DNA from: a virus
Virus record (IMG/VR): IMGVR_UViG_3300014838_000006
Location: 1-41,044 of that record
Length of the DNA: 41,044 bases
Reading direction: 5' to 3' (one strand)
Shown: positions 12,493-17,239 of the stretch, one piece after another
How the letters are laid out: each line of letters starts with the position of its first letter
How positions within the stretch are numbered: position 1 is the stretch's first letter
The notes under the pieces: generated by a model
Seen by the model: the letters and a program-made list of their open reading frames with translations, nothing else
Database searches by the model: none
What the model was told of the DNA's origin: nothing
Translations under genes and position numbers: made by a program

Positions 12493-12819
12493 TTAAGCTG
12501 CGAACGCGTTTGAGGCGCGCGTGCACAAAAGGTTTCTAATAGCTGTATCTTGTGTGATCGCTTGCGCTTGCGCAAACTTCACGGCGATTGTAGCATTCTG
12601 CGCCAACATACCAGAATAGTATGGATCTCTATAAATTAGGTTCATAGAGTAACCATCTTGGTTGATGTGCGTTACTGCTTGTTTTCCTACTACTGTATTG
12701 TAATAGACATCTCTTCCATTAGCAGATGTTCCACGCGCTACAGGAGCCTCAGATGATGTAAGGATGCGGATGTTGAATACCGATCCGTACTCAGCTGGGA
12801 GTGCTGATGCGTTTGTTGG
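12493..12819 (-). CDS. Major capsid protein, exon 5
   Basis: Encodes the last 108 residues, PTNASALPAEYG...ASNAFAA. The segment LPAEYGSVFNIRILTSSE...VGKQAVTHINQDGYSMNLIYRDPYYSGMLAQNATIAVKFAQA matches the C-terminal part of N4-gp56-type major capsid proteins (E(W/Y)G...R(F/I)L.SS...GK.AY......, then Y..P...GPLAQN). The exon begins at CCA immediately after the 3' end of the third group I intron. The join TAT|CCA gives NQWNYPTNAS in frame with exon 4. Confidence 0.8.
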   Translation of the reverse strand, partial: PTNASALPAEYGSVFNIRILTSSEAPVARGTSANGRDVYYNTVVGKQAVTHINQDGYSMNLIYRDPYYSGMLAQNATIAVKFAQAQAITQDTAIRNLLCTRASNAFAA

Positions 12820-13165
12820 CAAAATCTGTTACTTTTATGACCCAGACTACAAACATCTAGGCGGAGCAACCTCTTCGAATCGCTCTCTCTATGTTTCCAT
12901 AGAGTTCAGACTATCGCATCCTCTTTCGAGGCCTCTGGGTTTAGTCGTTCAGGCTGATTATTTTTCATTAATCTCTTCAAAGACTCCTTCACTATTAGCC
13001 CCGAATCACACATCGGTATTTCGGTTAATTTGTCTATCATTACTAACAGTGTTTCATTGCTAAGTTGAGATATACTCATAATCTTGCCCCTTGTTGTCCG
13101 TCTGCATACTATGCAACGAGGAGTTCCAAGTCAATTACCAAAGGTTTTAGAACTACACAACTTTT
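12820..13165 (-). ncRNA. Group I intron 3 of the capsid gene
   Basis: A 346-nt intron. The 5' site follows exon GAACTAT, which pairs perfectly (with the U-G wobble) to GTAGTTC 9 bases inside, forming P1. Within the loop GTTG pairs with CAAC at bases 2-5 of exon 5 (P10). The core boxes are R, GAACGACTAA (complement at 12941-12950), and S, ATGCGATAGTCTG (complement at 12907-12919). The intron ends in G. It shares long blocks with introns 1 and 2, including TTGACTTGGAAC near P4 and ACAACAAGGGGCAAG. A 57-residue ORF occupies the P6 region and runs into the core. Confidence 0.82.
12906..13079 (-). CDS. Intron-encoded 57-residue protein (intron 3)
   Basis: Starts at ATG 13079 after AAGGGG (7-8 bases) and ends at the TGA inside the S box. 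The protein opens MSISQLSNETLLVMIDKLTE and ends NNQPERLNPEASKEDAIV; that 18-residue end is read directly from the R, P8 and S core elements. It is the same length as, and colinear with, the ORF in intron 2 (13526-13699), and many codons differ only at the third base. This points to selection on the protein. Function unknown; a maturase-like or core-binding helper is a guess. Confidence 0.6.
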   Translation of the reverse strand: MSISQLSNETLLVMIDKLTEIPMCDSGLIVKESLKRLMKNNQPERLNPEASKEDAIV

Positions 13166-13444
13166 ATAGTTCCACTGGTTCAGGAAACCTGCGCCCGTGA
13201 GGCCGTCGAGGTCGGTTTGAAGCTCAGTAGAAGACAGCATGAAATATGCGCTACGTACTGGGCCTGTACCGAATCTATCCATTCCTTCGATACCGCTCAT
13301 AAATTTATAAGCGTTATTTGTATCGAGGGTCGTTGCCACTAACGAGAAGTCCGAGACTCCTAAGTTAGTTGGGTTGTCTCCGTTAGAACCGCCACCAGCA
13401 TTAATCTGGGAAGCTGCGGAAACAATATAGTCGCGAAGGATAAG
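13166..13444 (-). CDS. Major capsid protein, exon 4
   Basis: Encodes 93 residues from LILRDYIVSAASQINAGGG to GFLNQWNY. The stretch NGDNPTNLGVSDFSLVATTLDTNNAY...IEGMDRFGTGPVRSAYFMLSSTELQTDLDGL is the central domain of N4-gp56-type capsids (GDNPTEI...D......L..N.AY......G...FGT.PVR.A........L...L). The exon starts at CTT 13444 and ends at TAT 13166, and both joins are in frame by the P1/P10 placement. Confidence 0.8.
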
Positions 13445-13782
13445 CACACTGTTACTTTTATGACCTAAATTTTATTTTAGGCGGGAAAACCTCTTCGGAT
13501 TCTCCTCTCTATGTCTCCATAGAGTTCAGACTATCGCATCCTCTTTCGAGGCTTCAGGATTTAGTCGTTCAGGCTGATTATTTTTCATAAGTCTGATAAG
13601 CGCTTCTTTTACAAATACCCCAGCGTCACACATGGGTATTTCTGTTAAACTTCCCAACACCACTACCAATGTTTCGTTACTCAGTTTACTTATTTCCATA
13701 ATCTTGCCCCTTGTTGTCCTTCTGTTTATCCAGTTAGGAGTTCCAAGTCAATTACCCAAAGTTTATCGAGGACATTATCTCT
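13445..13782 (-). ncRNA. Group I intron 2 of the capsid gene
   Basis: A 338-nt intron. Exon end GAGGAT pairs perfectly with GTCCTC nine bases in (P1, U-G at the cut). GATAA in the P1 loop pairs with TTATC at bases 2-6 of the next exon (P10). R box complement at 13561-13570 and S box complement at 13527-13539 are identical in sequence to intron 3. It ends ...AACAGTGTG. Long identity with intron 3 shows a recent common origin, so one probably arose by transposition of the other within the same gene. Confidence 0.82.
13526..13699 (-). CDS. Intron-encoded 57-residue protein (intron 2)
   Basis: ATG 13699 follows AAGGGG by 7-8 bases. The protein opens MEISKLSNETLVVVLGSLTE, contains EIPMCDAG and ends NNQPERLNPEASKEDAIV. 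Compared with the intron 3 copy, conserved residues such as L, S, N, V, T, P, D, K and E are often written with different third bases, there are no indels, and the length is identical. The reading frame spans the P6 loop, R, P8 and S. No known domain is recognised. Confidence 0.6.
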   Translation of the reverse strand: MEISKLSNETLVVVLGSLTEIPMCDAGVFVKEALIRLMKNNQPERLNPEASKEDAIV

Positions 13783-13850: not shown

Positions 13851-14729
13851 CTAAGAGGGCGTGTTATTCAACATAACCATTTCTCTATAACAACCTTCAC
13901 GGAAATCAACCTCTTCTTCTGCAACTTTAGCCCTCCCATTTGTTGGAGTATAATGTCTGCAAAATTTAAGAAGTTTTATCGCTTGGATTGCTTTAGTTTG
14001 AAGAAAAGGAATGCATCTTTTTAAGAACTCAATCGCCTCGCCTCTTGCTGAAATAGACATTCTTAACGCACTCCCCCTTAAAGAAGAGTTTGCCTTAACA
14101 ATAGAAGCCCCCCCATATTCCATATTGGAAAGAATATGTTTTATAGATTTTTCTCCAACCATGGTCAGAAGAATTTTAGGTCTATATTTTATAAGGTCTT
14201 TTTTTTGTCTATTTCCTGGAGCTGGTTTTCTAACCGACCTCTCTATTGAAAAAGAACCATCGGTGTCCATTAAACCAGCTACATATGCCCAAAAAAATGA
14301 ATCTTCATTATGTTTCCTGTCGAGGGGATTTTCTGAAAAATCATCCATCTTTCTTGCCATATTTAACTCTTTGCAAGAAGCATAGTAATCCTTTCCATGA
14401 ACTGGATTTTCTAAAAACTCCAGAATCTCCCTGGCAGAATCTTGTTTCAAGATAAGATAAGGAAGAATTCTCTTAGAACACATCCTACATCCCTCTTTAC
14501 CTTGAAGCATCCACTTCCAAACCAGTCGATTTCCTTCTTTTCTTGGCTTATCACTAGCAAGAGTTCCTCCAAACACCTTCTTTAAATATTCTGGCATTTG
14601 TCTAACGGAATTATGAAGTTGAATTAAAGGAACGTATCCCTCTTCTCTACTTCTCATCCCTATATGGCCATCGCCATCTATTAATCCTGCTATATAAGCC
14701 ATCATTTCCTTCTCTTCGGGATCTTTCAT
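13851..14729 (-). CDS. LAGLIDADG homing endonuclease
   Basis: A 292-residue protein with a strong AGGAGG site before ATG 14729. It has two LAGLIDADG helices: AYIAGLIDGDGHI (residues 11-23), and AYVAGLMDTDGSF (about 148-160), so it is a single-chain double-motif enzyme. Asp residues at the helix ends are kept, so it should cleave. A CxxC-like pair (GCRMCSKR) follows the first motif. Its last codons (N-T-P-S-stop) contain the exon-junction guide. It has its own promoter and would make the double-strand break that spreads the insertion into intron-free capsid genes. Confidence 0.88.
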   Translation of the reverse strand: MKDPEEKEMMAYIAGLIDGDGHIGMRSREEGYVPLIQLHNSVRQMPEYLKKVFGGTLASDKPRKEGNRLVWKWMLQGKEGCRMCSKRILPYLILKQDSAREILEFLENPVHGKDYYASCKELNMARKMDDFSENPLDRKHNEDSFFWAYVAGLMDTDGSFSIERSVRKPAPGNRQKKDLIKYRPKILLTMVGEKSIKHILSNMEYGGASIVKANSSLRGSALRMSISARGEAIEFLKRCIPFLQTKAIQAIKLLKFCRHYTPTNGRAKVAEEEVDFREGCYREMVMLNNTPS

Positions 14730-14793: not shown

Positions 14794-14900
14794 ACCCTCT
14801 TGATCCTGGAGTATCACCTGTTCGTTGATTATACACCCAGTTCCAAAAAAAGCCATTTGTGCCTATCGATTATATCTCTCTGAGGCACTTGGGCTGGTGG
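14794..14900 (-). CDS. Major capsid protein, exon 2 (frame interrupted)
   Basis: 107 bases. From the intron 1 junction it reads PPAQVPQRDIID, then the frame must change by one base to read AQMAFFGTGCIINEQVILQDQEG. Both parts match N4-gp56-type capsids (PP.QVP...IDA.M.FYGTG..(L)NEQV.LQ.Q(D/E)). Between them, at GATAGGCACAAATGG, two bases are extra or one is missing. The next 7-T run (TGGCTTTTTTTGG) offers U-UUU-UUG, a sequence on which a -1 shift could occur. An assembly indel is equally possible. Confidence 0.65.
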
Positions 14901-15113
14901 CAATCTGTTGCTTTTTTGACCCCTTGCAGCGCAAGGCGGGAAAACCTCTTCGGATTCTCCTCTCGGATTTCATGTATTGTCCGAGATCAGACTATCGCAT
15001 CACCTTTCGGCGTCTTCTCACTTAGTCGTTCACGCTGCCAATAAAGCTTGCGCCCTGTTAGCCCATCGGCCGTCCAAGTCAATCAGAGAAGATTTTAAAT
15101 CGACACACCTTTC
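14901..15113 (-). ncRNA. Group I intron 1 of the capsid gene
   Basis: A compact 213-nt intron. Exon end AATCGAT pairs perfectly with GTCGATT (P1, U-G at the cut). GGTG in the loop pairs with CACC near the start of exon 2 (P10). R box complement 15022-15031 and S box complement 14988-15000 match the other two introns. It lacks the P6 ORF extension they carry and is therefore either the ancestral or a trimmed form. It ends with G at 14901. Confidence 0.82.
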
Positions 15114-17166: not shown

Positions 17167-17239
17167 GGGAATGTAGCTCAGTGGTTAGAGCAGCGGACTC
17201 ATAACCCGTCGCGCGAAGGTTCAAATCCTTCCATTCCCA
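17167..17239 (+). tRNA. tRNA-Met (anticodon CAT)
   Basis: A full 73-nt cloverleaf: acceptor GGGAATG/CATTCCC, D-arm GCTC/GAGC, anticodon loop CTCATAA, T-arm GAAGG/CCTTC with loop TTCAAAT, discriminator A. The anticodon stem GCGGA/CCCGT has one A-C mismatch at its top and a G-T at its base. CCA is not encoded. CAT could also be read as Ile after lysidine modification; the loop sequence favours elongator Met. It lies at the end of the ParB-like cassette. Confidence 0.9.

Follow-up and report, generated by a model that had tools for sequence, protein, structure and literature searches.

Two introns in the major capsid gene of a phage each hold an open reading frame of 57 codons, and these frames, ORF A and ORF B, are probably genuine mini-genes, exchangeable modules of a family of introns that reside in capsid genes. 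Judged from the sequences, the intron core seems to act as a platform on which swappable mini-proteins are expressed and fused. Two observations carry this reading: the mini-ORFs are under coding selection, and they follow a frame-0 rule where they enter the catalytic core.

Two related mini-ORFs in introns of a phage capsid gene

In the window, the whole stretch of 41,044 nt of viral DNA that was analyzed, a phage major capsid gene lies on the minus strand and is interrupted by at least three related introns. Intron 1 (positions 14901–15113, 213 nt, boundaries placed by splice-site reading) carries no payload. It is followed by intron 3 (13445–13782, 338 nt) between the flanks ...QAED and LILRD..., an exon (13166–13444) that separates introns 3 and 2, intron 2 (12820–13165, 346 nt) between ...QWNY and PTNAS..., and the last exon (12493–12819), which matches the major head protein family phrog_1357 with an E-value of 6e-4; all of these lie on the minus strand. 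By sequence reading, introns 1–3 share a U·G pair in P1 at the 5′ splice site and a G as the last intron base. Joining the exons around intron 2 yields one open capsid frame, RSAYFML...QWNYPTNASALPAEYGS, which continues from ...QWNY directly into PTNASALPAEYGS... across the junction; at introns 1 and 3 a 2-nt shift close by and the insertion of an endonuclease gene disrupt the 90-nt frame-joining test. The Rfam family RF00028 was the best match in the region and lay on the correct strand, with 21.9 bits (E 0.011) for intron 2 and 19.4 bits (E 0.067) for intron 3 against a gathering score of 50. The P3 and P8 pairings are present in one minimum free energy fold, and the P7 pairing GACTA/TAGTC comes from reading only. 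On structural grounds the window introns are classed as group I introns, and their splicing is predicted.

Three further features were observed in the window. A LAGLIDADG endonuclease gene of 292 aa (13851–14729, minus strand; PF00961, phrog_5046) lies within the capsid gene, flanked by the exon pieces ...ILQDQEG and AWVSERLAVAM, and outside the introns of the mini-ORF family. In the capsid exon after intron 1, at ~14850–14865 (minus strand), two extra bases follow ...RDIID in comparison to locus L003, which represent either a capsid frameshift or an assembly error. A tRNA gene is located at 17167–17239 (plus strand, 70.8 bits to Rfam RF00005).

ORF A (12906–13079) in intron 2 and ORF B (13526–13699) in intron 3 are complete minus-strand frames with stop codons and code for 57 aa each, which confirms the equal length given in the original prediction; the span of 12906–13699 assigned to the pair covers both ORFs and the capsid exon between them. 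Each ORF consists of a variable payload of 41 codons (12957–13079 in ORF A, where it occupies the P6a loop, and 13577–13699 in ORF B) and a core-coded tail with the stop codon (12906–12956 and 13526–13576, respectively), all on the minus strand. In ORF A the tail reads QPERLNPEASKEDAIV and derives from the 3′ strand of P6, the 5′ strand of P7, the 3′ strand of P3, P8 and the 3′ strand of P7. The core motif ACAAGGGGCAAG is found at 13083–13094 (minus strand) in intron 2, where it contains the P6 5′ strand GGC, and at 13703–13714 (minus strand) in intron 3 together with a likely Shine-Dalgarno sequence; the same motif occurs in payload-less introns.

The two proteins are 79% identical over 57 aa, and their alignment bears out the common phrases SNET, LTEIPMCD and NNQPERLNPEASKEDAIV. 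The likeness of the ORFs arises because one payload is a copy of the other. At the DNA level the payloads are 69% identical, with 38 differences in 123 nt and no indels; 13, 5 and 20 of the differences fall on codon positions 1, 2 and 3 (chi-square p = 0.012), in agreement with the claim of an indel-free frame that differs mainly at third positions. NG86 counting gave pS 0.68 and pN 0.22, corresponding to a dN/dS of ~0.15 with dS near saturation. The pN/pS ratio of 0.32 between the ORF A and ORF B payloads (95% bootstrap 0.17–0.57) compares with 1.01 and 1.83 in the shifted frames and, together with the absence of indels, lets the earlier observation on this pair stand. Frame 0 of the payload is free of stops in both ORFs, and the other sense frames contain 12 and 4 stops in ORF A and 6 and 4 in ORF B. 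The shared C-terminus was predicted to be read from the R, P8 and S elements of the ribozyme core. Its origin in the core holds, and its source is wider than stated: it comprises the 3′ strands of P6a, P6 and P3 in addition to the 5′ strand of P7 (R), P8 and the 3′ strand of P7 (S). A stretch of the type seen in the ORF A tail is also present in payload-less introns of the family.

An AlphaFold2 (AF2) model of ORF A contains two helices at residues 8–20 and 25–40 with pLDDT values of 75–79 over residues 1–40, and the core-coded tail is modeled at low confidence. A PDB search with the payload model gave no match below E 5.9, and ORFs A and B were without match in Pfam, DUF551 (PF04448) included. 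No homologue of the window payload was found by tblastn in 50,697 phage records. When viral contigs were searched with this payload, the core tail alone was recovered in two loci, with different or absent N-termini.

Inserts of related introns nearly always enter the core in one reading frame

Contigs of uncultured phages commonly contain related introns. We collected these introns from viral contigs with a pattern for the 3′ core from R to S (scan 1, at least 119 stretches), with the core motif plus ATG, leaving the downstream sequence unconditioned (scan 2, 94 stretches with 103 distinct places), and with the 3′ pattern of a second core type alone, leaving start and frame unconditioned (scan 3). 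The patterns cover P6 in its GGC form together with one or two variants of R, and the count of scan 1 is a lower bound, so that the sample represents part of the family. All tallies omit the window copies L001 and L002 as well as L210, and identical stretches were counted once. Among the at least 119 stretches of scan 1 the region between ACAAGGGGCAAG and R is bimodal, being either a hairpin of 12–23 nt or an insert of at least 100 nt, and in most inserts of 100–300 nt a mini-protein starts 0–3 nt past ACAAGGGGCAAG and runs into QPERL.... Scan 2 showed the same arrangement in most of its 103 distinct places, one of which (L130) has a phase that rests on a false R match, and brought out the second core type, QPERSKRED.... 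In scan 3, frame 0 was used in 74 of 83 inserts of at least 40 nt; the core was not found in 16 of 104 places, and the ‘own2’ entry for L124 stems from the anchor of a neighboring intron and is artefactual. A further tally was made by core anchors, of which 18 of 290 were set aside for lack of an R element. Frame 0 was used by 112 of its 131 inserts of 25–500 nt and another frame by 3; 9 had their own stop and 7 lacked a start.

As a control set we took all distinct P6 (P6a) inserts of 60–300 nt in the collected loci (n = 155; 24,016 nt). Stops in frames 0, 1 and 2 relative to the core number 45, 617 and 1050, and 146, 4 and 0 of the 155 inserts are stop-free in these frames, with 2.4 expected under shuffling; the antisense frames are stop-free in 20, 16 and 5 inserts. 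An ATG follows the core motif ACAAGGGGCAAG within 0–5 nt in 148 inserts and is missing nearby in the other 7. From this start, reading reaches the core stop-free and in frame 0 in 140 of the 148, and 143 are in phase 0 at R if the three with their own stop in this phase are counted. Besides these three, the eight exceptions comprise inserts with their own stop in phase 2 (two) or phase 1 (one) and two that are open in phase 2. Single linkage at E 1e-3 groups the N-termini into 108 clusters, of which 100 use frame 0 purely and one partly, so that frame-0 fusion to the QPER... tail is found in 101 of 108 clusters (p ~1e-39 against an expectation of 1/3).

Selection on the protein, as originally proposed, is thus supported in the ORF A/B pair and far more strongly in the 155 related introns. 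One close pair (L159/L172) gave a dN/dS of ~1.7 on 13 differences. For distant pairs dN/dS is lowered because pairs were chosen by protein similarity; the window pair has its shifted-frame control. The proposed check of homologous introns for frequent stops or frameshifts, or for a dN/dS near 1, was run and left the reading intact. The interpretation of ORFs A and B as members of a related protein family using the core is partly supported: the tail does come from the ribozyme core, but a family defined by a shared N-terminus misses the main feature, the same tail following 108 payload clusters elsewhere.

A few individual loci deviate. In the second intron of L028 and in L138 the payload enters the core in phase 2, and in L028 the stop is a TAA within R (GACTAA). 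L128, L136 and L195 have their own stop ahead of the core; these rare exceptions are possible natural controls. An 18-base pattern of core plus ATG had three matches in bacterial and archaeal genomes; both inspected ones (L211 and L213) are without such an intron and look like chance matches.

Pairing of P6 and P6a and a likely ribosome-binding site

We defined P6 as core bases 7–9 paired with the three bases preceding the T of R. All three pairs are intact in 262 of 272 introns, and five combinations (GGC/GCC, GCC/GGC, CGC/GCG, GCG/CGC and CGG/CCG) occur at least 13 times each. In 118 payload introns, pairs 2, 3 and 4 of P6a exceed all 1000 shuffles, with compensated forms including GATT/AATC, GAAT/ATTC and GATA/TATC. 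P6 and P6a therefore covary, and their pairing places the start codon at the mouth of the P6a stem. The sequence AAGGGG located 7 nt before the ATG is core sequence that is also present in payload-less introns; by its sequence and spacing it likely serves as a Shine-Dalgarno element supplied by the core.

A second variable stretch in P8 and module combinations

Many ORFs run on past QPERSKRED into P8, where they cross another variable stretch. Among payload-bearing introns, a long P8 (R–S >60 nt) is found in 53 of 86 of the S-type and in 12 of 48 of the L-type, compared to 1 of 112 payload-less introns; no S was found in 6 of 140 payload-bearing introns. The long P8 stretches (n = 61) are stop-free in frames 0, 1 and 2 in 49, 13 and 1 cases, respectively. 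At S the phases are distributed 30/16/2 in L-type and 14/32/40 in S-type introns, the latter being loose yet non-uniform (p = 0.002).

Module combinations vary. A survey of 138 payloads in 97 clusters and 52 P8 modules in 38 clusters, in which a few variant-R rows (L003_3395, L125) are labeled L-type though they are S-type, yielded nine multi-member P8 clusters, most of which pair with unrelated P6 payloads. P8 cluster 0, for example, was found with P6 clusters 3, 4, 12 and 74, and P6 clusters are present on both core types. At the capsid site of residues 180–182, each of 16 introns has a payload of its own; the median identity is 0.73 for the flanks and 0.48 for the payloads. An AF2 model of a two-slot protein reached a pLDDT of 50.7. 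A possible P8-loop ORF just past R, next to a bare or absent P6a insert, was seen in L123 (7004–7027), L216 (3658–3681) and L004 (3400–3700).

Payload content and endonuclease genes

Pfam searches (E 0.01) with 136 mini-ORFs identified DUF551 in three (best E 1.7e-8), DUF6980 likewise in three, and, once each and at weak or moderate strength, FYDLN_acid, DUF6300 and others. The PHROGs matched by the mini-ORFs are families of unknown function plus one weak Lar-like match, and CxxC pairs occur in many payloads. Endonuclease families were missing both from these Pfam matches, taken at E up to 0.01, and from the few named PHROGs. The payload of cluster 1 had no matches in the phage records, and one DUF551 payload weakly matched one Enterobacter phage. 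Guided by the DUF551, zinc-ribbon and weak Lar-like matches, one may guess that the mini-proteins are small accessory proteins acting against host or rivals.

LAGLIDADG genes lie in the same P6a loop in at least 9 of 31 inserts of >300 nt, in antisense orientation (L043, L117, L128, L140, L149, L190, L196, L198 and L019), whereas the mini-ORFs run in sense. These antisense frames are the likely source of intron mobility. Since a hairpin, an antisense LAGLIDADG gene and a sense mini-ORF were all found, P6a has three states.

Location in the capsid gene

Nearly all payload introns are located in the capsid gene: a capsid-gene exon is found at most 1.5 kb upstream or at most 2.5 kb downstream in 135 of 139 payload introns, and on both sides in 102. 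They occupy many sites of this gene, and at least two such introns are present in 23 of 111 loci. Among the flanking reading frames (n = 58), matches were to a major tail protein family in 16 cases and to a major head protein family in 10. The N-terminal 180 aa of the L003 capsid protein gave no tblastn matches in the phage records, and the capsid clade is therefore uncultured within that collection.

Proposed module exchange and competing explanations

In the reading that we prefer, a small group I intron would house, in its P6a loop, a coding module whose ATG lies directly past the 5′ strand of P6a. AAGGGG, as part of the ribozyme core, would recruit the ribosome, and the frame would cross P6 and the 5′ strand of P7, encoding the constant QPER..., into P3 and P8, which would hold a second module in many introns; reading would end in or near the 3′ strand of P7. 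Modules could move between introns and phages by homologous recombination in the conserved flanking core sequences, and with a fixed phase at the P6/P7 junction any P6 module would be readable into any downstream part. Such a phase convention, presumed to underlie the frame rule, would account for frame 0 being near-obligatory at R and for the use of all three frames at S. For the most far-reaching version the chances appear evenly balanced: the intron family would have turned into a platform for building proteins, the catalytic core would be ribozyme, ribosome-binding site and constant segment of a two-slot protein at once, the P6 and P8 modules would be traded among phages under one frame standard, comparable to integron gene cassettes or to phase-matched exons in exon shuffling, and the capsid gene would be a store of fast-changing mini-proteins.

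Translation and splicing would be mutually exclusive on one RNA, because the ribosome would occupy the core and would have to unfold it in passing P6, P7 and P3. A folded transcript would splice to give capsid mRNA, and an unspliced or unfolded RNA would yield the mini-protein. A splicing defect upon ribosome occupancy of the intron is described for T4 td (PMC3073962), which makes such a competition plausible here.

A simpler explanation is that genes in the P6a loop have lost their own stop and run to the next stop in the core, in which case tail and frame would be meaningless. Extension of loop ORFs into the core is indeed present in the introns of this family, and overlap of an intron ORF with P6a and P7 is known from I-TevI in T4 td (PMC3073962). 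AF2 models the tail as unstructured, its residues track variants of the RNA (QPER, QPDR, QPDS, QPES), and the far end at S is read in all three frames. However, this process predicts entry in any frame, and it is the far end alone that varies, with 140 of 148 ORFs entering in frame 0. The other frames have nearby stops in the core (TGA in GCCTGA, TAA in the L-type GACTAA), frame 1 of the S-type being open too, and own stops ahead of the core are rare. We consider it unlikely that run-through alone accounts for the pattern.

The phase convention does not fully explain the short-P8 L-type introns: frame 0 is near-fixed in L-type introns as well, which mostly have a short P8 and no obvious need of such a convention. 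A function of the QPER(S/L)... peptide itself, as a tag, a docking or an RNA-binding tail, for instance a maturase-like splicing aid, is therefore a real rival, though an unlikely one as we judge it. The peptide is charge-rich and is the sole constant protein part beside 108 payload clusters, and M, Q, P, E and R alone are conserved at ≥90% in 136 aligned ORFs. On the other hand, its residues are fixed by RNA pairing regardless and are present in payload-less introns, substitutions of E to D and R to S accompany RNA variants, and its predicted order is low.

P6 loops are classic sites of homing endonuclease genes, and in other introns of the family the same loop carries LAGLIDADG genes. We nevertheless rejected the view that the inserts are decayed remnants of such genes as very improbable: the LAGLIDADG frames are antisense to the mini-ORFs, endonucleases are missing from the Pfam matches and named PHROGs described above, and purifying selection acts on the mini-ORFs. 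Also rejected, as having next to no probability, was the view that the ORFs opened by chance in a structured RNA spacer and are held open by RNA constraint, as the tail part is by pairing; against it stand 146 stop-free inserts against 2.4 expected, the codon-position bias and low pN/pS in the true frame only, and recognizable domains such as DUF551 (E 1.7e-8).

Relation to known introns and implications

The closest likeness to mini-genes fused to the core is the T4 td intron, in the P6 loop of which the I-TevI ORF resides; its last 20 nt contribute to P6a, P6.0 and P7, an overlap termed ‘core creep’ (PMC3073962). Common to both systems are a P6-loop ORF, a 3′ end in the core and ribosome traffic set against splicing. 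The td intron encodes a 245-aa homing endonuclease with a 20-nt overlap and a ribosome-binding site sequestered in a loop hairpin (PMC3073962), whereas the introns studied here have a tiny, hypervariable non-endonuclease cargo, an overlap from P6 through P7, P3 and P8 to the 3′ strand of P7, a likely ribosome-binding site in the core and one prevailing entry frame. The Discosoma ND5 intron also hosts non-homing genes (15) in a peripheral loop, but these are complete genes in the P8 loop, and they are not described as core-fused or swappable (PMC3073962). Mycobacteriophage LittleE has a group I-like intron in its major capsid gene with a LAGLIDADG gene on the bottom strand; in contrast to the present family it is a single intron with an endonuclease only, for which no sense mini-ORF is described (PMC3706429). 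DUF551, found here in 3 of 136 mini-ORFs, is portable in the small mosaic Ea22/DUF551 proteins of lambdoid phages, which lie outside introns and are not joined via a ribozyme core (PMC10834534). A survey of Bastillevirinae reports many introns in phage genes with loop-coded proteins, but these are mostly HNH or other endonucleases and the host genes belong to DNA and nucleotide metabolism (PMC11878797).

We did not find the same arrangement in the open-access PMC literature, covered by titles and abstract openings. The claim that such a use of the core is without precedent does not hold in general, since the I-TevI ORF of T4 td runs into the core; it holds for a cargo that is highly variable and non-endonuclease, an almost uniform frame of entry, a Shine-Dalgarno sequence that the core likely provides and the second module in P8, which are new here.

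Introns in phage genes are usually seen as parasites bearing homing endonucleases. The family described here brings a large and rapidly changing repertoire of other small proteins into the major capsid gene, and its catalytic RNA seems to serve at the same time as a translation signal and a protein-coding constant region. If true, introns gain a role as carriers of cargo. With 108 clusters in a small sample, the family is a hunting ground for unfamiliar mini-proteins. Annotation likely misses introns with mini-ORFs, because Rfam scores fall below threshold for both window introns and the capsid gene looks broken. The family also offers a natural system to study translation and ribozyme folding on one RNA. 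A payload-less member was found, via weak DNA similarity, in the isolate Desulfovibrio phage 7757 (L210, 1900–2650), a possible laboratory system.
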